From contig JAAEMR010000078.1 in NCBI GenBank assembly GCA_024225395.1, forward strand, positions 1 to 64,000: a DNA stretch of 64,000 bases, given 5' to 3'. This DNA is from Gammaproteobacteria bacterium (GTDB lineage: Bacteria; Pseudomonadota; Gammaproteobacteria; GCA-001735895). The position numbers and the translations under genes are program-made. The notes beneath the pieces were generated by a model, which saw nothing but the letters and a program-made list of their open reading frames with translations, made no database searches and was not told where the DNA came from. Within the stretch, counting starts at the first letter, position 1. Every line of letters starts with the position of its first letter. Positions 51,221 through 62,412 of the stretch are shown piece by piece.

Positions 51221-51409
51221 ATACTTACTATGGTCTATTGAATGGAATATTAAAAATTGCTAATATTCTACACATTTTCTGCAGCTAATTGCGTAGATAG
51301 TATTTAGCGTAGAAGTCATTTAATCGATCATGATTACGTGTTTTTGCGCAGTTTCAAATTTATGCATCGGGTTGAGATGACCTGTTATTCGATATTGGTA
51401 AAATATATA

Positions 51410-52579
51410 ATGAGATTAAAGTTTCCAACAGCTCCAACTGTCTTTATCAATTCAGTCATGTTGCTGCTATCTATGCAGGCACAGGCCTGGCAGGTCATGA
51501 CAGTTGAAGCTGCAGCGTTTGGTAGTAAAATTAAAATAGGTGGAACCGTTATCCCCTATAAGGAAGTTACTTTGTCTGCCCAGGTACCCGGGCGGATTCA
51601 GTATATAGCCGGTTCAGAAGGTGATTATTTTCAAAAAAATAATCTGCTGTTATCTATTGATGATGATGACCTGGTGGCGAAACGTCGTGCTGCACTTGCT
51701 CAGTTAGCGAATGCTGAATCAAGTTTGCGTAATGCTCGCGTTCAATACAACAGAGAGTTGATTTCACCTCGTACAGAAAGTACCGGCTCTATGCCTGGTA
51801 TGGGTATGCCTTCTTTATTCGATAACCTGTTTACCCGTAATGTTGGTAATGCGATGGGTTATGGTAATCCAGATGTCGAGAGACATGCTGATTTGTACTC
51901 TTCGGGTTCTCACGTTAAGAATGCTGAATCTGCCGTATTAAAATCACGCTCTGCACTGGAAGAACTTGACGCTAAATTACGTGATGCCAGAGCAATAGCT
52001 CCATTTGACGGTAAGCTGGTACGTAAAATGGTTGAAGAAGGGGATACCGTTCAACCGGGTACTCCTTTATTAAAATTTGCACATACCCAGTATCTTCGTA
52101 TTCGAGCAGAGATTCCTGCCAGGTTGATTTTTGGCCTTAGCAAGGGGAGCCTGGTTGATGTGAAACTGGATATTAATAATACCTACACCAAAGCCAAGGT
52201 AGCACAGATTTATCCTGTCGCTGATCAACAAAAGCATACTGTTACAGTGAAATTTGATTTACCGGAAGGAACACCCGGTGGTCCGGGACTGTATGCTGAA
52301 GTCACAATTAACGATACCACTGCTTCTCAGAAGCCTGTACCGGTTATTCCAAAAGATGCTGTTCTCTACCGGGGTAGTTTACCCAGTGTTTATATCCTGG
52401 ATAAAGAGAATAAGGCGAAAATGAAGTTGGTAAGACTGGGCGCGGATTACGATGAACTAAGAGTCACTGTTTTATCTGGAATTTCAGAAGGAGACCGCAT
52501 TATCAGTGCGCCGCCTAAAACGATTAGATCAGGCTGGACCCCGGAGATTCAGAATTTAACTTCGGGTGGCGATAGTTAG
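51410..52579 (+). CDS. RND efflux periplasmic adaptor (HlyD/MFP family)
   Basis: Signal peptide, VTLSAQVPGRIQYIAGSEGDYFQKNNLLLSID, IAPFDGKLVRKMVEEGDTVQPGTPLLKF; precedes the RND gene. Confidence 0.88.
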   Translation: MRLKFPTAPTVFINSVMLLLSMQAQAWQVMTVEAAAFGSKIKIGGTVIPYKEVTLSAQVPGRIQYIAGSEGDYFQKNNLLLSIDDDDLVAKRRAALAQLANAESSLRNARVQYNRELISPRTESTGSMPGMGMPSLFDNLFTRNVGNAMGYGNPDVERHADLYSSGSHVKNAESAVLKSRSALEELDAKLRDARAIAPFDGKLVRKMVEEGDTVQPGTPLLKFAHTQYLRIRAEIPARLIFGLSKGSLVDVKLDINNTYTKAKVAQIYPVADQQKHTVTVKFDLPEGTPGGPGLYAEVTINDTTASQKPVPVIPKDAVLYRGSLPSVYILDKENKAKMKLVRLGADYDELRVTVLSGISEGDRIISAPPKTIRSGWTPEIQNLTSGGDS

Positions 52580-52656: not shown

Positions 52657-55600
52657 ATGACAGAACAAACTAACTCCAAAAAACAGCAGGAAAAATCGTT
52701 AGGTTTAGCGGGTGGATTGGCCAAGGCCTTTATTCATTCTCCTTTGACACCTATGCTGCTCATAGCCTGTTTCCTGTTAGGTATTATGGGTGTGGCCATG
52801 ACACCGCGTCAGGAAGACCCTCAAATTTCAGTGCCTATGGTCGATGTTTTCGTTCGTTATAACGGTGCTTCTGCACAACAGGTTTCCAGGCTGGCGACAG
52901 AGCCGCTGGAACGTATGCTGAATGAAATGAGCGGAGTGGATCATGTCTATTCAGCTGCGATGCGTGGTCAAGGCATGGTAACCGTACAGTTTGAAGTGGG
53001 TGAAGAGCTGGAATCTTCACTGGTAAAACTGTACGACAAAATCAGCTCCAATATGGATAAAATTCCGCCGGGTGTTGATCAACCGCTGGTTAAACCTAAA
53101 GGGGTTGATGATGTGCCAGTGGTTACTCTGACCCTATGGTCTAACACGCTGGATGATTCAATAATTCGTCTGACTGCTCTGGATGTGTTGCAGTCGATCA
53201 GTATGGTAGGAAATACGAGTCAGGGTTTTGTGGTTGGTGGCCGTTCAGACCAGTTAAAAATTGAAGTACTGCCTGAAAGATTGTCAGGCTATGAAATCAG
53301 TCTGGATCAAATTGCCAATACGATCCGAACTGCTAACAGTGAACTGGGATTAGGCAATATAGAGTCTGATAATTTAAGTTCAACCGTTTATGCTGGTGCA
53401 TTCCTGGAAACGGTCAGTGATATTGAAAGCCTGGTCGTTACCATTAAAGATGGCTCGCCTGTTTATATCAGGGATGTAGCCCAGGTAACTGCGTCACCAT
53501 CTGATACTTCCAATCTGGTGAGTTATTATACCGGGCCGAATAATCTTGCTGAGGGTGAAGAGGAAGCCTTCGCTGCTTCAGCGGTCACTATCGCAATAGC
53601 CAAAAAGAAAGGTTCTAACGGGGTTGAAGTTGCTGAAGATATTATTGCAATGGTTGACACGCTTCGAGGTACGGTCATTCCTGATGATATCCATGTTTCG
53701 GTAACACGGGATTATGGTGAATCTGCGAAAAATAAGGTGAATGGACTGATCTTAAAATTATTTATTGCAACGGCGATTGTTGTTGTATTGATCTGGGCTG
53801 CGTTGAATTTCCGCTGGGAACCTGCTCTGGTTGTTATGATCGTTATTCCTGTGGTTATTCTGGCTACCATTTTTTATGCCTTATTAACCGGTTATACCAT
53901 TGACCGAGTCAGCCTTTTCGCGCTGATATTCTCGATAGGTATATTAGTTGATGATGCTATCGTGGTAGTGGAAAATATTTATCGACGCTGGTTGATCGAT
54001 GAAAGTACTGATACATCAATTGCTATTGATGCGGTTCGTGAAGTCGGTAATCCGACCATTCTGGCAACTTTTACCGTTATCGCCGCATTATTACCGATGG
54101 GTTTTGTGAGAGGCATGATGGGACCTTATATGGAACCAATTCCAGCTCTCGGTTCTTTTGCGATGTTGTTCTCGGTATTTGCTGCTTTCATGTTTACACC
54201 GTGGCTGGCGATGAGAATAAAACCTTCAATGAGTAAATTGAAGGAAATGGAAGAGTCAGAACACAAACAAAATGAATGGCTTGGTAATCTTTTCAAAAAA
54301 ATTCTTATCCCTCTCATTACCAGTAAAACAAAAGGGCGATTATTTCTTATAAGCCTTTTCGTTATCTTCTTTTTATCAATCATCATGTTTTACACCAAGA
54401 GTGTTCCGGTAAAAATGTTACCGTTGGATAATAAATCTGAATTTAACGTTGTAGTTAATATGGCCGAAGGAACCGCTTTACCGGTCACTGCTAATATTGT
54501 GAATGAACTGGCAGAAGTTATTCTTCAGGTTGATGAGGTGACGGCAATACAGACCTATGCCGGAACAGCATCACCTTTCAACTTTAATGGTCTGGTCAGG
54601 CATTATTATCTTCGCACAGAGCCCTGGCAGGCAGATTTACAGGTACAGTTATTAAGCAAGAAAGAACGTACTCGTAGCAGCCATGAAATCGCAGAAGATG
54701 TTCGTGAGCGTTTGCAGGAAATTATTAAGGGTAATGACGCGGTTCGAATTCAAGTCGTTGAAATGCCTCCCGGGCCTCCAGTATTACAATCGGTAGTGGC
54801 CGAAGTGTACGGCCCTGATGAAAAAATCAGGCGTCAGGTTGCAAGGGATCTCGAGCAGAAATTTATTGAATCTCCCAATATTACCGATGTCGATACACTG
54901 ATAGCGGATGATTATAAGGTTTGGCGATTTGAAGTAGACACGGAAAAAGCGCTTAGGCGGGGTATTTCTGTTGATACCATAAACAGAACACTGCAAATGT
55001 CGCTCGGTGAATTTATTCTGGGTGATGTTAAGAGTGGTCTTAAATTAGAACCTACCTATATCATTATCCAGGTTCCTATTGAGGTTCGTGCCGATTTAGC
55101 GCGACTTAAAGAAATGCCCGTACCGAGTCAGTTAGGAAGTAGTGTGCCGTTAGGAGAGCTGGGAGATTTCTACCAGATCGAGCAGGAAAGCATAATTTAT
55201 CATAAAGATTTGAGGCCGGTCGAGTACGTGACGGGTGAAACTATTGGACGCCTCGGTGCACCCATTTATGGAATGTTTGATGTTATTGATTCACTGGAAA
55301 ATTATACGGCTCCAGATGGTATTTCTTTAAAAGGAACCTGGACGGCACCACCGGATTCTGATGCTCAATCTGGATTTGAGTGGTCTGGTGAATGGACAGT
55401 AACCTATGAAACTTTCCGTGATATGGGTATGGCATTTGGCGTGGCAATTGTGCTTATCTACATGTTAGTCGTGCTGGAGTTTGGTAATTTCAGTTTACCG
55501 GCTGTCATCATGGCTCCTATTCCTCTTACGCTTGTTGGAATTATTCCTGGTCACTGGTTGTTTGGTGCTGAGTTTACTGCTACCTCAATGATTGGTTTTA

Positions 55601-56523
55601 TTGCACTGGCCGGTATTATCGTGCGTAACTCTATTCTGCTGGTGGATTTTACCAAGCATGAAGTTGAGGATGGCAGACCGGTAACCGATTCTGTTTTGCT
55701 GGCCTGTAAGGCGAGAACACGTCCGATAGTGGTCACAGCCCTGGCTCTGGTTGGAGGCTCTGCCGTAATAATCTTTGATCCCATCTTTAAAGGCATGGCT
55801 ATATCACTGGCTTTTGGCGTTCTGGTATCAACAATTCTTACGCTGGTCATCATTCCATTAGGGGCAATTACTGTACGTAAATCTTTTGCTGAGAAATCAC
55901 TGGATGCCAGTGGAGCAACCGTATTTGCAGAGCTCCCTTATGACCCGATTCTGGAGGGAGATTACACGGATAATGGAAATGAAGATGATGACTCTGAAAG
56001 AGGGGTTCTTGACTACATATCAGTAGTATTATCTTTTATCTGGATATTTGTTATCTCCATGGTGGTTGCTTTCCGTGATTTTTCAGTCGATCTTGCAACA
56101 GCATTAATTCGTCTGCTGACTAGAAAAAGCAATGAAACTGATACATCAGTTATAACAAAGAATTCAGCTAATGAAAGCTCTGAAAATAAACCACAACCCG
56201 TCATCACGCCCGTGCCGTCCGAAGAAAAAGTTATTCAAACTTCGGCAACGGAAAAAGAGATAGAGAAGCAGCAAGTTGAACTTGAAGATACTCGAGTGGA
56301 TGAGCAACCGGTTAAAAAGAAAGCATCCATTAAAAAGGTTTCAGCTAAAAAATCTGCTGTTAAAAAAGGTTCTACAAAGAAAACGGTTGCTAGCAAACCG
56401 GTGGCAGCAAAAACCACTGAAAAACGCTCAAACGTTAAAAAAGCAGCGGTTAAGAAGGCAACTCCGATCAATAAGAGTAGTCGAAGAGGTATAAGGTTGA
56501 AATCTGATATTGATGATGAATAA
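52657..56523 (+). CDS. RND efflux transporter permease with basic Lys/Ala-rich C-terminal tail
   Basis: MTPRQEDPQISVPMVDVFVRYNGASAQQVSRLATEPLE, SIGILVDDAIVVVENIY; tail PVKKKASIKKVSAKKSAVKKGSTKKTVASKPVAAKTTEKRSNVKKAAVKKATPINKSSRRG. Confidence 0.93.
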   Translation: MTEQTNSKKQQEKSLGLAGGLAKAFIHSPLTPMLLIACFLLGIMGVAMTPRQEDPQISVPMVDVFVRYNGASAQQVSRLATEPLERMLNEMSGVDHVYSAAMRGQGMVTVQFEVGEELESSLVKLYDKISSNMDKIPPGVDQPLVKPKGVDDVPVVTLTLWSNTLDDSIIRLTALDVLQSISMVGNTSQGFVVGGRSDQLKIEVLPERLSGYEISLDQIANTIRTANSELGLGNIESDNLSSTVYAGAFLETVSDIESLVVTIKDGSPVYIRDVAQVTASPSDTSNLVSYYTGPNNLAEGEEEAFAASAVTIAIAKKKGSNGVEVAEDIIAMVDTLRGTVIPDDIHVSVTRDYGESAKNKVNGLILKLFIATAIVVVLIWAALNFRWEPALVVMIVIPVVILATIFYALLTGYTIDRVSLFALIFSIGILVDDAIVVVENIYRRWLIDESTDTSIAIDAVREVGNPTILATFTVIAALLPMGFVRGMMGPYMEPIPALGSFAMLFSVFAAFMFTPWLAMRIKPSMSKLKEMEESEHKQNEWLGNLFKKILIPLITSKTKGRLFLISLFVIFFLSIIMFYTKSVPVKMLPLDNKSEFNVVVNMAEGTALPVTANIVNELAEVILQVDEVTAIQTYAGTASPFNFNGLVRHYYLRTEPWQADLQVQLLSKKERTRSSHEIAEDVRERLQEIIKGNDAVRIQVVEMPPGPPVLQSVVAEVYGPDEKIRRQVARDLEQKFIESPNITDVDTLIADDYKVWRFEVDTEKALRRGISVDTINRTLQMSLGEFILGDVKSGLKLEPTYIIIQVPIEVRADLARLKEMPVPSQLGSSVPLGELGDFYQIEQESIIYHKDLRPVEYVTGETIGRLGAPIYGMFDVIDSLENYTAPDGISLKGTWTAPPDSDAQSGFEWSGEWTVTYETFRDMGMAFGVAIVLIYMLVVLEFGNFSLPAVIMAPIPLTLVGIIPGHWLFGAEFTATSMIGFIALAGIIVRNSILLVDFTKHEVEDGRPVTDSVLLACKARTRPIVVTALALVGGSAVIIFDPIFKGMAISLAFGVLVSTILTLVIIPLGAITVRKSFAEKSLDASGATVFAELPYDPILEGDYTDNGNEDDDSERGVLDYISVVLSFIWIFVISMVVAFRDFSVDLATALIRLLTRKSNETDTSVITKNSANESSENKPQPVITPVPSEEKVIQTSATEKEIEKQQVELEDTRVDEQPVKKKASIKKVSAKKSAVKKGSTKKTVASKPVAAKTTEKRSNVKKAAVKKATPINKSSRRGIRLKSDIDDE

Positions 56524-56540: not shown

Positions 56541-57113
56541 ATGATATTTTTAAAAATTAATTATCTGACAGGATCTTTATTCCTTTTTTCTCAAATAGTT
56601 CTTGCAGCGGAGTATGTACCTCCGCCGTCAGGGCCTTATAAATCTTCAGGTATTGTGAATACAAACCTGCAGCATTCCAGTAGTTCTGCAAAAATTTACA
56701 GGTTTCCTTCTGATGGATTAATTCAGTCGGAACCTCGAGTAAAATCTAAACCTGCATATTTTTATAGAAATCAAAGAGATATCAAAACACAGGATATGGT
56801 AACAAAACCGGTCATAGAAGCTGCGCCTGTAGCTCCGGTAATAACTAAACCCGTTGAACCTGATCAGGCTATTGTAGTGAAACCAGTGTCTCCTCCCATG
56901 ACTGGTCACTTCACGGGAAATCCCTGGGCTCCAGATTCTATGCCTCAATCGACTGATCATTATCCCGGGTACTGGAATAATCAACAATATTCATACCCTC
57001 AGCAAAATCCTTATGGGTACGGTAATCAAAATAACTTTATGAATAATGCTATGAATGGCATGCCTTCTCCGTGGTCGGCAATGCCGATGCAACCTTTTTT
57101 TTCAGGCAACTAA
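56541..57113 (+). CDS. secreted Pro/Asn/Tyr/Trp-rich protein
   Basis: Signal peptide, GNPWAPDSMPQSTDHYPGYWNNQQYSYPQQNPYGYGNQNNFMNNAMNGMPSPWSAMP; 17 bp after the RND stop. Confidence 0.7.
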   Translation: MIFLKINYLTGSLFLFSQIVLAAEYVPPPSGPYKSSGIVNTNLQHSSSSAKIYRFPSDGLIQSEPRVKSKPAYFYRNQRDIKTQDMVTKPVIEAAPVAPVITKPVEPDQAIVVKPVSPPMTGHFTGNPWAPDSMPQSTDHYPGYWNNQQYSYPQQNPYGYGNQNNFMNNAMNGMPSPWSAMPMQPFFSGN

Positions 57114-57116
57114 GTA

Positions 57117-57734
57117 ATGAATAAAATTTTAATAACTAGTGTAATGCTACTGATATCTTCTGCCACATTTTCAGAAGCCAGTATCGATATGCATGACCAA
57201 CAAAAAACATTCTTGTTGACCGCACCAGGTACTGTAACCGGAACCAACCAATTACCCTCAGGACAGACTGATTCAAATCGTGCTGTAACCACATTACCGC
57301 AGAATAACCCGGTAAATCGTCAACGTCCTATGCGCTATAAATATGTTGGAGAAAGTACGAAATTCCGTCAGTTTGGTCAGGAACCGGGGCAAAATAATCC
57401 GTGGTTTCAAAACTTTAACTCTCAGTATCCCGGTCGCTCTGCAGATATGAGACAGGCACCATTAACGAACCCCTGGCAATTAGGCGGTATGCCGTCAATG
57501 CGGGGCATGATGAATAATAGTTCGGCACCTCCATATTCAGCAGATTCCTATTCTCCTTATCAACCTGGAAACAATTCGAGTAATGACCGGTTATATCCGG
57601 ATTTTCCGGTTGGTATATATCGAGATACTAATCCTGCAGCTTTTTCAATGCCGTCTCATAATAAAAATTATATGCCGGGATTTAGCGGTGATAATTTTGG
57701 ATTTCCTTTTTCTCCCTTTGGGATGTTTAAATGA
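57117..57734 (+). CDS. secreted Pro/Asn/Met/Trp-rich protein
   Basis: Signal-like N-terminus; NNPWFQNFNSQYPG, TNPWQLGGMPSMRGMM, terminal GFPFSPFGMFK. Confidence 0.7.
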   Translation: MNKILITSVMLLISSATFSEASIDMHDQQKTFLLTAPGTVTGTNQLPSGQTDSNRAVTTLPQNNPVNRQRPMRYKYVGESTKFRQFGQEPGQNNPWFQNFNSQYPGRSADMRQAPLTNPWQLGGMPSMRGMMNNSSAPPYSADSYSPYQPGNNSSNDRLYPDFPVGIYRDTNPAAFSMPSHNKNYMPGFSGDNFGFPFSPFGMFK

Positions 57735-58495
57735 AACTTTCTCAACTCATTGTTTTATTTCAGCTAGGTATTCTGTCAACCTGTGCGGATGCTTTGCAGT
57801 TTACGGCTAATGCGGTTATGTCAACACCGGGCAGGGCGGATGTTTCAACGTATTTGTATTATTCGACTGGACGTATTCGCAAAGAGTTTTTTTATTATGG
57901 TGAACCGGTTATCCAGATATTAGATGCTAATAAACATATTAGCCTGATGTGTTTTACCGACCAGACATTGTGCTATGAAAACAAAACTCTTGAAGAAATA
58001 AATATCGGCATTGAGAAAGCGATTACAACACCCTGTGAAAATAATTCTGCTTTGAGCTGTGAAAATCTGGGGTTGGTGGAGATAAATCAACGCCACGCAG
58101 TTAAATGGAAAATTACAGCTAAAGAAGGTGAGTCTGAAAAAGTTTCAAATTTATGGCTTGATAAAGAGCTCAATATTCCTGTGAAGCATACTTTATTTAA
58201 TGGCACTATTATCGAACTAAAGTGGCTTGGAGATGAAAAGTTAAATAATCGAGAAACGGATAAATGGGCTCAAACTATTAAATTAGCAAATGGGGAAACT
58301 CTGGAAAGTTTTCAATGGTTTGATAAAGAGTTAAAAATTAGTATTCGTGAAACATTTCCTAATGGTAACTCTCAGGAATTACAGCATATCGTGGTTAAGG
58401 AAATAGATAATAAATTATTTTCTATGCCGGTCGGTTATGAAAAAAAAAGTATGAACAATCCTTTAGGGCAGACCGGGAGCTCAGTTAAAAAATAA
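57731..58495 (+). CDS. putative periplasmic protein, possible LolA-like / DUF4412-like fold
   Basis: Signal peptide; TANAVMSTPGRADVSTYLYYSTGRIRKEFFYYGEPVIQILDANKHISLMC; overlaps the preceding ORF by 4 bp. Confidence 0.6.
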   Translation: MKLSQLIVLFQLGILSTCADALQFTANAVMSTPGRADVSTYLYYSTGRIRKEFFYYGEPVIQILDANKHISLMCFTDQTLCYENKTLEEINIGIEKAITTPCENNSALSCENLGLVEINQRHAVKWKITAKEGESEKVSNLWLDKELNIPVKHTLFNGTIIELKWLGDEKLNNRETDKWAQTIKLANGETLESFQWFDKELKISIRETFPNGNSQELQHIVVKEIDNKLFSMPVGYEKKSMNNPLGQTGSSVKK

Positions 58496-58606: not shown

Positions 58607-59245
58607 ATGATTACAGTCATTGGAAATTTGAAAGGGGGCACAGGTAAAAGTACAGTTGCCTTCAATCTGGCTATCTGGTTGAAAATCCAACGAGGTTCCG
58701 TCGCTTTATTCGACCTTGATCCACAAAAAACTCTAACTGATGTTGTAGATATTCGTGAAGAAGAAGGTTACGAACCCGAATTAGAAGTACTTGACGATGT
58801 TTCGGCCTTGAAGTCATGGAAAAAGAAAAGAAGTGAAGTCATTGTTGATGTCGGAACGGCCGATTTCGAATCCATGAAAATGGCTTTGAAACTGGCTGAC
58901 AGAATTGTAGTTCCCGTTCCTCCCAGTCAGGCCGATATCTGGTCTACTCAACGTTTCATAAAAATCATTCGCGAACAGTGTGGCGGTAACAATAAAATGC
59001 CTAAACTGCTTGGCTTTATTAATCGTGCCGATACTCATCGAGGCGTTAGAGAAACTGATGAAGCTGAAGAAGCATTAGGATATTTAAAAAGTATCCAGCA
59101 TATTAATTTACGCTTATACCAGAGAACAGCATATAGACGCTCATTTAGCGAAGGTTTAGCCGTATTTGAAATGCAACCGACCAGTAAGGCTTCTAAAGAA
59201 ATATTAGATCTGGCGAAACACCTTTACCCCGTAAAAACCAGATAA
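58607..59245 (+). CDS. orphan ParA/MinD-family ATPase
   Basis: Deviant Walker A NLKGGTGKSTVAFNLA; FDLDPQKTLTD; VIVDVGTAD; VVPVPPSQADIWSTQRFIKII; no adjacent parB-like gene. Confidence 0.88.
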   Translation: MITVIGNLKGGTGKSTVAFNLAIWLKIQRGSVALFDLDPQKTLTDVVDIREEEGYEPELEVLDDVSALKSWKKKRSEVIVDVGTADFESMKMALKLADRIVVPVPPSQADIWSTQRFIKIIREQCGGNNKMPKLLGFINRADTHRGVRETDEAEEALGYLKSIQHINLRLYQRTAYRRSFSEGLAVFEMQPTSKASKEILDLAKHLYPVKTR

Positions 59246-59268
59246 ACCCAATGATGGAGAGCTGAGTT

Positions 59269-59910
59269 ATGAGTTTTGGTCGCTGGCTGCTGGTAAATAG
59301 CTTTACTATTATTCTACTTACCCTGTTTTTATTTGGGTATGTTTTTCGAAGCGAACTTCAGTTAGAGAATGCTTTTAATCAACTTTTAAATATTGAACCT
59401 GTACCGGCTTTATCTTTACCTGACTCTTCTAAGTCAATGCCTACAGAAAAAAATCAGGATGCAATTCAACAAAAAGACACTGATATCAAAACAATTTCCA
59501 GCCCCGTCATTGTTGAAAAGAAAGAAACTGATAAAGAAGCTCCTTCAAATTTATCAGCAGTGCCGACGGTATCAACTGTACCCCCGCCAAAGATCGAATC
59601 TGTTGAAATTCAGGGAGAGATAAATCAGCTGTATTTAGCCCGGCAGGCTTACTGGGATAAAAATTATGCGGATGCAATTTATTTTTATCGCCAGCTAATT
59701 CAGCAAAATAGAAATAACCCCGATTATCTGGGAGAACTGGGCAATATTTATTATTCACTGAATGATAACCAGAATGCTTCCAAATTATACTATCAGGCTG
59801 CTATGTTATTTGTGAATCAAAACCAGTCTGACAGGGCACATTTACTGGTTGCTCCTATAGTTGCGATGAATCGAGAGTTAGGGGAAAAACTTAAATTACA
59901 ACTTCAATAG
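59269..59910 (+). CDS. membrane-anchored TPR-like protein
   Basis: N-terminal TM, Pro/Ser/Lys linker, then QGEINQLYLARQAYWDKNYADAIYFYRQLIQQNRNNPDYLGELGNIYYSLNDNQNASKLYYQAAMLF. Confidence 0.72.
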   Translation: MSFGRWLLVNSFTIILLTLFLFGYVFRSELQLENAFNQLLNIEPVPALSLPDSSKSMPTEKNQDAIQQKDTDIKTISSPVIVEKKETDKEAPSNLSAVPTVSTVPPPKIESVEIQGEINQLYLARQAYWDKNYADAIYFYRQLIQQNRNNPDYLGELGNIYYSLNDNQNASKLYYQAAMLFVNQNQSDRAHLLVAPIVAMNRELGEKLKLQLQ

Positions 59911-60158
59911 CTGGTTGTTTCTGGGAAGCTTCTGTTTAAAGCTAAGAGTTAACTGTATACCCCCAAAAGCCCTAAATGCTCCAGGGTTTTTCTCCAGTTG
60001 AATTGGGTTGTAATTTCAATAAAAAGCATTGAAATTAATACAGATTTATATTTTCCGAGTATAAGTAAATCGCTATTTATAACATTTATGTCTATAATAT
60101 CCCTGTTTAGCTGTGTTCCTTAAAGCTAAACTTTAAGTTTATTAATTAGGGTCAATAT

Positions 60159-60614
60159 ATGAGTAATTCAGAAGTGCAAAATAACTCTCAAATCAATCTT
60201 GATACAGGATGCATGGAGCGCCTTGCCGATACATTTGAAAGTAGTGCCAAACGCTGGGAATTAGTTGTATATCCTTCCATGGTTGCATTTGTAGTTCTGG
60301 CTGTTTACGGCTTTTATCTGATCTACACATTGTCACGAGACGTGCATAACATGACCCTGACTTTAACCACCCTGACTATTTCTGTTGATAGAAACATGAA
60401 TGACATGACCAACTCTATTCGCACAATGGACCATACGATGGTCAAGCTGGGGAACAATATTGGTAATATGGATGGGAATATTCAATCCATGACGCAAAAT
60501 ATTGCATCCATGACTCAGAATACAAATGCAATGGCGACCTCAACTTATTATATGCAGCGTAATATTCGTGATGTAGCAAGGCCTATGAATATTATGAGTC
60601 GATTTATGCCATAA
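60159..60614 (+). CDS. single-TM protein with Met-rich heptad-repeat tail
   Basis: TM (VVYPSMVAFVVLAVYGFYLIYTL) followed by NMNDMTNSIRTMDHTMVKLGNNIGNMDGNIQSMTQNIASMTQNTNAM. Confidence 0.7.
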   Translation: MSNSEVQNNSQINLDTGCMERLADTFESSAKRWELVVYPSMVAFVVLAVYGFYLIYTLSRDVHNMTLTLTTLTISVDRNMNDMTNSIRTMDHTMVKLGNNIGNMDGNIQSMTQNIASMTQNTNAMATSTYYMQRNIRDVARPMNIMSRFMP

Positions 60615-60672
60615 CTGAGATTCTTGCCATAAATACAATTTCTTTCCACTGTTTGATGTATAAATACAGGCT

Positions 60673-62175
60673 ATGTTCTACCCTAGAAAAGCAATAGAGA
60701 CCCGTCTAAAGAATCTCGAAAAACATCTGGAACAGGAAAACCCCATTCTAATAGAGGCGGTACAGAGTTTTAAAGAACTGGATAGTATTGCTTATCGCAT
60801 GGGTCTGATTTCCCGTGAAGAATCTTATGCAACACAAATACCCTGGTGGCCTTTAATATCCATTCTAGGTACTTTTTCAGCGGGTAAATCTACCTTTATC
60901 AACTCGTTCCTGGGTACTAAATTACAAACATCGGGTAACCAGGCTGTAGATGATAAATTTACTGTCATTTGTTATACCAATGACGATAAAAGCCGAGTTT
61001 TACCCGGACTGGCGCTTGATGCTGATCCACGATTTCCATTTTTTAATATCAGCGATGATATTGATAAAGTAGCCCCTGGAGAAGGTGAGCGAGTTAATGC
61101 ATATTTACAGCTAAAAACGTCTCCTACCTTACCCATAAAAGGTAAGATACTGATCGATTCACCGGGCTTTGATGCAGATGCGCAAAGAAACTCTACCCTG
61201 AGAATTACCGATCATATTATCGATCTCTCTGATCTTGTGCTGGTATTTTTTGATGCACGTCATCCTGAACCCGGTGCTATGAAAGATACCCTGGAACACC
61301 TGGTTTCTAAATCAATCCAGCGAACCGATTCTACAAAATTTCTGTATATCCTTAATCAAATTGATACAGCAGCTAAAGAAGATAATCCGGAAGAAGTTGT
61401 CGGTGCCTGGCAACGTGCTTTATCTCAGAGTGGTTTAACGGCAGGCAAGTTCTACATGATTTATGATGAATCTTCATCTGACAGTATCCACGATGAAGAA
61501 TTACAGCAACGTTTCAAAATAAAGAAAGATTCTGATTTACAGGCTATCTATGATCGTATGCATCAGGTCGAAACAGAAAGGGCTTACCGGATTGTAGGTG
61601 CAATGGATAAAACGGCAAGTGGTATAGAGAATAAGGCAATACCTGCACTCAAAGCCGCTATCAGAAAGTGGACAAAACGCGTGCTGATAACAGATGCAGC
61701 TCTTTATGGAATCATTATTGGCCTGGGTAGTTATCTGGTTACTTCTCAGAATGCCTGGAATAATCTTTCGCCTTCGACCTTGATCGATGCTTATAATAAC
61801 AATCCACTTATGGGCTTAGGTTACTTTTTACTGACTTTTATAGTAATTTTTGGGATACATGTATTCAGTAGAAAATTATGGGCCACACGCATTTCCAGGC
61901 AACTACCAAGATCTGATATGCCTGGAAACCTGGTCACTGCATTTGAAAAAAATACACAAATATGGAGAAGTGTTTTTAATACATCTCCTCATGGATGGAA
62001 CCGAAGAGTTGCTCGCAAGTTACGCCGGGTGACTGAAAATTCCGGCTTATTTGTACAAAAACTTAATGATAGTTTTGCTAATCCTTCTGGTAGAGAATCT
62101 ACATTAAAGACTCAGGCAACGACTGATATCTCTTCTTTTGATGTTTCGCCACCTGAAACAAAGGTTGATATTTAG
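60673..62175 (+). CDS. dynamin-like GTPase with C-terminal TM segments
   Basis: G1 LGTFSAGKSTFINSFLG, G3 IDSPGFDAD, G4 LNQID; two hydrophobic segments ALYGIIIGLGSYLV and GLGYFLLTFIVIFGIHVF. Confidence 0.82.
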   Translation: MFYPRKAIETRLKNLEKHLEQENPILIEAVQSFKELDSIAYRMGLISREESYATQIPWWPLISILGTFSAGKSTFINSFLGTKLQTSGNQAVDDKFTVICYTNDDKSRVLPGLALDADPRFPFFNISDDIDKVAPGEGERVNAYLQLKTSPTLPIKGKILIDSPGFDADAQRNSTLRITDHIIDLSDLVLVFFDARHPEPGAMKDTLEHLVSKSIQRTDSTKFLYILNQIDTAAKEDNPEEVVGAWQRALSQSGLTAGKFYMIYDESSSDSIHDEELQQRFKIKKDSDLQAIYDRMHQVETERAYRIVGAMDKTASGIENKAIPALKAAIRKWTKRVLITDAALYGIIIGLGSYLVTSQNAWNNLSPSTLIDAYNNNPLMGLGYFLLTFIVIFGIHVFSRKLWATRISRQLPRSDMPGNLVTAFEKNTQIWRSVFNTSPHGWNRRVARKLRRVTENSGLFVQKLNDSFANPSGRESTLKTQATTDISSFDVSPPETKVDI

Positions 62176-62220: not shown

Positions 62221-62412
62221 TTATTGAACAAGTAATATCAGTGCAATAACAAACGCAACTACCATAAGCAATGGTTTAATAGCCGACATCCAGTCGTCTT
62301 TTGTCGCTTTAGGAGAGTTCGCTGAGGCATGCTTCAGGCTGGGGTAAATCATGAACATCATGCCTACAATAAATATAGCTGAAATAATTTTTAACCAATC
62401 CACGTTTGTCAC
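62221..62412 (-). CDS. small two-TM membrane protein
   Basis: 63 aa, two hydrophobic segments (IISAIFIVGMMFMIYP; PLLMVVAFVIALILLVQ). Confidence 0.55.
   Translation of the reverse strand: MTNVDWLKIISAIFIVGMMFMIYPSLKHASANSPKATKDDWMSAIKPLLMVVAFVIALILLVQ

Follow-up and report, generated by a model that had tools for sequence, protein, structure and literature searches.

A conserved RND-ParA-dynamin gene module of sulfur-oxidising Proteobacteria, probably linked to periplasmic sulfur globules

Four consecutive genes of a gammaproteobacterial contig raise the question of what a ParA-type ATPase, two membrane proteins and a dynamin-like GTPase might do together. An earlier note on the window (the whole stretch of 64,000 nucleotides analysed here) had read them as a group that could position or remodel a membrane compartment or an envelope machine. 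The four open reading frames are indeed co-directional, all on the plus strand at the positions listed in Table 1. The boundary drawn around them was too narrow, since the conserved module starts at an RND adaptor gene at position 51338, and they form the 3' part of a co-directional cluster of about ten genes. Upstream of the module lie ordinary genes for IspD, enolase, DAHP synthase and CTP synthase, and downstream of the dynamin gene, on the opposite strand, a gene for a Bax1-I/YccA-like protein. Between these two last genes, a 63-aa open reading frame with two hydrophobic stretches (62221-62412, minus strand) is possibly an unannotated small membrane protein.

Table 1. Genes and motif of the module in the window.
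Feature	Position	Strand	Basis or remark
RND periplasmic adaptor (membrane-fusion protein, MFP)	51338..52579	+	First gene of conserved module; HlyD_D23/HlyD_3 above cut-off, TIGR01730 171 bits
RND (HAE-type) permease with long C-terminal extension	52657..56523	+	ACR_tran 470 bits; 1288 aa
RRGIRLK motif near C-terminus of the Lys/Ala-rich RND tail	56482..56502	+	Pattern match
u190, exported Pro/Ser/Asn/Tyr-rich protein	56541..57113	+	N-terminal hydrophobic segment read as signal peptide; composition
u205, exported Pro/Ser/Asn/Gly-rich protein	57117..57734	+	N-terminal hydrophobic segment read as signal peptide; composition
u254, periplasmic LolA/RseB-superfamily-like protein	57731..58495	+	DUF4412/MucB_RseB in relatives; Foldseek
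Small ParA/MinD-family ATPase without adjacent ParB	58607..59245	+	CbiA, AAA_31; Walker residues
TM-anchored TPR protein	59269..59910	+	TPR_19 at cut-off; N-terminal TM
Single-TM protein with SARRWELIVYP juxtamembrane motif and Met-rich heptad tail	60159..60614	+	Family alignment
Dynamin-superfamily GTPase with two C-terminal hydrophobic helices	60673..62175	+	Dynamin_N

The four proteins largely answered to their first description. The ParA protein matched the Pfam families CbiA (50 bits) and AAA_31 (above cut-off) and has the KGGxGKS/T Walker A motif and Walker A'/B aspartates of the ParA/MinD family. Its deviant Walker A reads KGGTGKST across 66 relatives; K9, G10, G11, G13, K14, S15, T16, D36, D38 and D81 were kept in at least 95% of these homologues, in which the C-terminal arginines R173, R177 and R178 are also conserved. 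The neighbours matched no ParB family, in agreement with the earlier claim of an orphan ParA. DNA partition of the ParABS type was rejected on the same ground, ParA being flanked by LolA/RseB-like and TPR proteins with no ParB, and so was a plasmid origin: among 72,556 plasmids the dynamin was unmatched and ParA matches reached at most 36% identity. The ParA gene was present as a single copy per genome in 65 of 369 genomes of the class (E<=1e-35). The TPR protein scored exactly at the TPR_19 cut-off (25.0/25) and has one N-terminal TM (about residues 7-25), and the heptad protein has one TM (about residues 41-59), a Met content of 11% and Pfam matches that were all sub-threshold (DUF948 best), so that both also correspond to what had been proposed. 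From the charge around the single TMs, the predicted location of the TPR domain and of the Met-rich heptad tail is the periplasm, and the SARRWELIVYP segment, conserved in the family alignment of the heptad protein, would face the cytoplasm as a candidate contact for ParA.

The fourth protein was confirmed as a dynamin-type GTPase with C-terminal TM segments, scoring 52.4 bits against a Dynamin_N cut-off of 27 and carrying hydrophobic helices near residues 338 and 379. The P-loop (G1) residues S69, G71, K72 and S73 were invariant in 55 dynamin sequences, as expected for the superfamily, and the best PDB fold matches were EHD4 and bacterial dynamins. It has this GTPase fold in common with the C. 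jejuni DLP pair, IniA, BDLP, SynDLP and the EHD ATPases, whereas it is shorter (500 aa), shares about 15% identity with them and is partnered by an RND/ParA module. We read it as a TM-anchored GTPase on the cytoplasmic face, most like EHD and bacterial dynamins.

Conservation of the module was analysed in loci chosen by ParA alone. Of the 65 genomes found in the class-wide search, 40 loci were taken, of which two weak ones (about 40% identity) were set aside. In an HMM scan of the remaining 38, the RND permease and the adaptor were each found in 29, the heptad protein in 24, the dynamin and the TPR protein in 20 each, a protein of the sulfur-globule-protein (SGP) type in 19, LolA-like and DUF302 proteins in 14 each, and in 9 a conserved protein of about 130 aa that no Pfam family matched. 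These counts are lower bounds because some loci are cut by contig ends. The module spans Gammaproteobacteria and Alphaproteobacteria, and SGP genes lie inside it in either class; its carriers include Rhodobacteraceae, Sulfurivirga, Sedimenticola and Allochromatium vinosum. Thus, the four genes first noticed are kept together across many families and two classes, and the earlier proposal passed the synteny check that could have refuted it. The 248-bp gap after the TPR gene, from which two transcription units had been suggested, is real; it is weak evidence for two units, because no terminator-like site was found in it and because the DUF302 gene ('c15') of the 14 related loci is drawn between the TPR and heptad genes. 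No trace of a DUF302 remnant was found in the gap of the window.

The dynamin is the member least tied to the module: it is missing in about half of the loci and is not exclusive to them. A scan of named genome contigs gave 54 dynamin loci. The gene was module-embedded in several uncultured Gammaproteobacteria, Sedimenticola, Sulfurivirga, a Piscirickettsiaceae MAG and Rhodobacteraceae MAGs, and stood without the module in Nitrosomonas, Thiomargarita and Aestuariicella loci. Lone dynamins of the Nitrosomonas/Thiomargarita type formed one group in the tree (98/96), separate from the dynamins that are linked to the module. In Sedimenticola and several Chromatiaceae the gene is divergently transcribed; in G568, from the same genus as A. 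vinosum, it lies upstream of the module in this orientation. Within the window's own family, dynamin and SGP genes did not coincide perfectly, one genome (G032) having the dynamin without SGP and two (G035 and G036) the reverse. Some minor observations concern the gene's surroundings. Close relatives without the module (L024-L060) occur in Nitrosomonas and Thiomargarita, that of Nitrosomonas following an argH-like and a kinase-like gene. In five Rhodobacteraceae loci (L022, L026, L029, L040 and L058) a conserved protein of about 190 aa comes after the dynamin; it weakly resembles peptidase M41 (17 bits, below cut-off).

The RND pair consists of an ACR_tran permease (470 bits) and an RND_mfp adaptor (171 bits), as in AcrB-type HAE efflux pumps. 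Unlike these, the module permease has a long tail ending in RRGIRLK, an extra hydrophobic helix and ParA, dynamin and SGP neighbours; the window RND did not reach the NCBIfam multidrug cut-off (438 vs 1250), and no outer-membrane channel was seen among the clustered genes. The tail extends about 130-360 residues past the last canonical TM and is usually Lys/Ala-rich, the window protein having 1288 aa compared with about 1080 aa in tail-less paralogues. Under a strict pattern, RRGIRLK was present in 40 of 42 full-length cluster RNDs (of the two others, one has WRGIRLN instead and L114 carries the motif in a neighbouring ORF). It was found in none of the 17 nearest tail-less RND homologues and was absent from the tail-less paralogues of Chromatiales. 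Chromatiales-type genomes (loci L167, L171, L172, L174, L183 and others) often have a second or third tail-less RND of about 1080 aa, with 57-63% identity to the query, about the same as the module RNDs. It should be noted that the RND match in 188 of 210 genomes of the order of A. vinosum (E<=1e-290) includes such tail-less paralogues.

A Lys/Ala-rich tail could also bind DNA like histone H1 and tether the complex to the nucleoid, leaving ParA to act on the dynamin or the heptad protein. The tail gave 25.6 bits, below cut-off, with the histone H1-like HC2 model. However, K+R in the last 120 residues varied from 2% to 37%, while invariance is confined to the short end with RRGIRLK, which makes a DNA-binding tail improbable. 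The idea that the tail is plainly cytoplasmic was itself weakened by the extra hydrophobic helix, which lies ahead of RRGIRLK in 52 of 64 tails and is absent in some members: if this helix is transmembrane, RRGIRLK would face the periplasm and contact with ParA would be impossible. The members without it, together with the positive charge, favour the cytoplasmic side.

In many loci, the stretch between the RND and ParA genes codes for exported proteins with the pattern WWGPFNNNGWGNNGW...GRGNGYG...APYGYGAPYG. A profile built from ten such proteins gave 28 matches, the training sequences among them, in 26 of 104 loci (1.55 Mb). All 28 share the strand of ParA and precede it by 24-2686 bp, and none was found elsewhere in the 104 loci. 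In two loci (L105 and L113), SGP and ParA were the only recognised module genes in about 20 kb. In the window, u190 and u205 had no family match in Pfam and NCBIfam profile searches and resemble SGP-type proteins in composition only; there is no recognisable SGP in the cluster, and two SGP genes lie elsewhere in the genome. The relatives of u254 carry DUF4412 (17 of 33 family members) or MucB_RseB (4 of 33). Its AF2 model (pLDDT 87) matched RseB/LolA by Foldseek at an E-value of about 1e-6, with low TM-scores, mostly 0.2-0.5. The proposal of a positioned or remodelled envelope machine was right in direction and lacked the cargo: the RND pair and the SGP-type exported proteins are part of the module, which tracks sulfur oxidation.

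NCBIfam models for naming SGP-like proteins gave no match, and SgpA and SgpB of A. vinosum were therefore taken as reference. An alignment-based profile of eight SGP-type proteins matched exactly two A. vinosum genes, with products of 12.6 and 13.0 kDa, which are the masses published for SgpB and SgpA, respectively (PMC10386293). This agreement relates the SGP-type proteins of the module to genuine globule coat proteins. A. vinosum DSM 180 (G569) carries the order MFP-RND (with RRGIRLK)-exported protein-LolA-like-ParA-heptad, the DNA upstream being masked; its module parA lies at C1:2014334-2014951 on the minus strand. Among its SgpA/B/C/D proteins, coat proteins of the SgpA/B type are encoded inside the module in many genomes, whereas in A. 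vinosum itself sgpA and sgpB lie elsewhere. Its sgpD has been reported beside an HAE exporter (PMC10386293). Identity of the module with this locus was rejected, as the published sgpD terminator is missing from the 20-kb module region; the exporter beside sgpD is thus probably another gene.

To examine the relationship with sulfur oxidation, 40 ParA-bearing genomes, mostly from different families, were compared with 39 genomes without ParA. SoxB was over cut-off in 38 of 40 and 11 of 39 genomes (Fisher p=2.6e-10) and DsrA in 33 of 40 and 10 of 39 (p=3.9e-7), respectively, both tests being not fully corrected for phylogeny, so that the enrichment could come partly from shared ancestry. The RND pair, exported proteins, LolA/RseB-like protein, ParA, TPR, heptad and dynamin proteins are shown, at the level of gene content and order, to belong to a single conserved cluster, for which sox/dsr genomes are enriched. 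The genome of the window has dsrA and no soxB match. Incomplete correction for ancestry, like the lone dynamin of ammonia oxidisers, would suit a module that organises membranes in general, is frequent in sulfur-oxidiser lineages through descent and has no sulfur role. That the module reaches across many families and into the Alphaproteobacteria, and contains SGP genes in either class, speaks against this reading, which we regard as very improbable. A link with phototrophy was rejected, as no reaction centre was found in 58 ParA-positive genomes; A. vinosum nevertheless has the module.

An efflux pump for hydrophobic sulfur compounds that are toxic or in excess (polysulfanes, or extracellularly deposited sulfur), with ParA, the heptad protein and the dynamin clustering or turning over the pump and placing no globule, would fit the fact that RND and MFP are the most conserved partners of ParA (29 of 38 loci), as well as the module in four genomes with sox and no dsrA call over cut-off (G174, G191, G262 and G335). 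It would leave unexplained the coat-protein genes directly upstream of ParA, present even where the RND is gone (L105 and L113), and we consider it unlikely. Our preferred reading, to which we assign a probability of about 0.6 from the sequence comparisons, is that sulfur-oxidising Proteobacteria have in this module an envelope system dedicated to their periplasmic sulfur globules; that it is linked to sulfur globules in one way or another appears highly probable.

How a globule-dedicated system would work can be outlined in parts. There seems to be an even chance that the RND complex and its periplasmic helpers carry hydrophobic material, be it coat protein, lipid or sulfane, to the globule or away from it. 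We give similar weight to the suggestion that a nucleoid ParA would position or partition the inner-membrane complex together with the globule, by analogy with McdA and carboxysomes. More tentatively, ParA might contact this complex either at the RND tail with its conserved RRGIRLK or at the juxtamembrane segment that is conserved on the cytoplasmic side of the heptad protein. A little short of even odds, the dynamin-like GTPase, anchored on the cytoplasmic side, might bend or tether the inner membrane around a bulging globule. As sulfur globules in the periplasm protrude into the cell body, a positioned membrane machine with a membrane-shaping GTPase would give a coherent picture. On the other hand, globules have been described as randomly placed in many species (PMC10386293), which does not favour active positioning. 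The most complete version, an organelle-type system in which a nucleoid ParA places and partitions an RND-based globule-building machine, the dynamin remodels the inner membrane and RRGIRLK is a new ParA-binding tag, is thus offered as a possible but doubtful extension.

As in McdAB, the module has a dedicated ParA/MinD ATPase inside the gene cluster of a large cargo, with no adjacent ParB. It differs from McdAB in that the cargo would be a membrane complex and a periplasmic inclusion, no McdB was seen, and the neighbours of ParA are RND, SGP, TPR, heptad and dynamin genes rather than carboxysome genes. The seven ParA/MinD systems of H. neapolitanus were linked to the chromosome, divisome, carboxysome, flagella, chemotaxis, conjugation and nitrogen metabolism, and none to sulfur globules (PMC10241942). 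In the literature searched, we found no relevant paper linking sulfur globules with ParA or dynamin (the only paper that mentions these topics together states that dynamin is missing from SUP05 bacteria) and no earlier description of the module. Little is known about how sulfur globules are assembled, enclosed, positioned and passed on at division, and the known globule proteins are structural coat proteins. The module provides named candidate genes for globule transport, positioning and membrane shaping, and A. vinosum is a genetically tractable model that carries it. If the proposal is true, the ParA/MinD family would gain a further kind of cargo, and a bacterial dynamin would be placed in a cellular context.

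Finally, four loci (L098, L118, L126 and L131) have a divergent PAS-sigma54 activator gene upstream of the MFP gene (Sigma54_activat, with HTH_8 in L118). Their sigma-54 (-24/-12) matches near the adaptor start rank among the best observed (9-10 of 10), which suggests sigma-54 control of the module in this subset.
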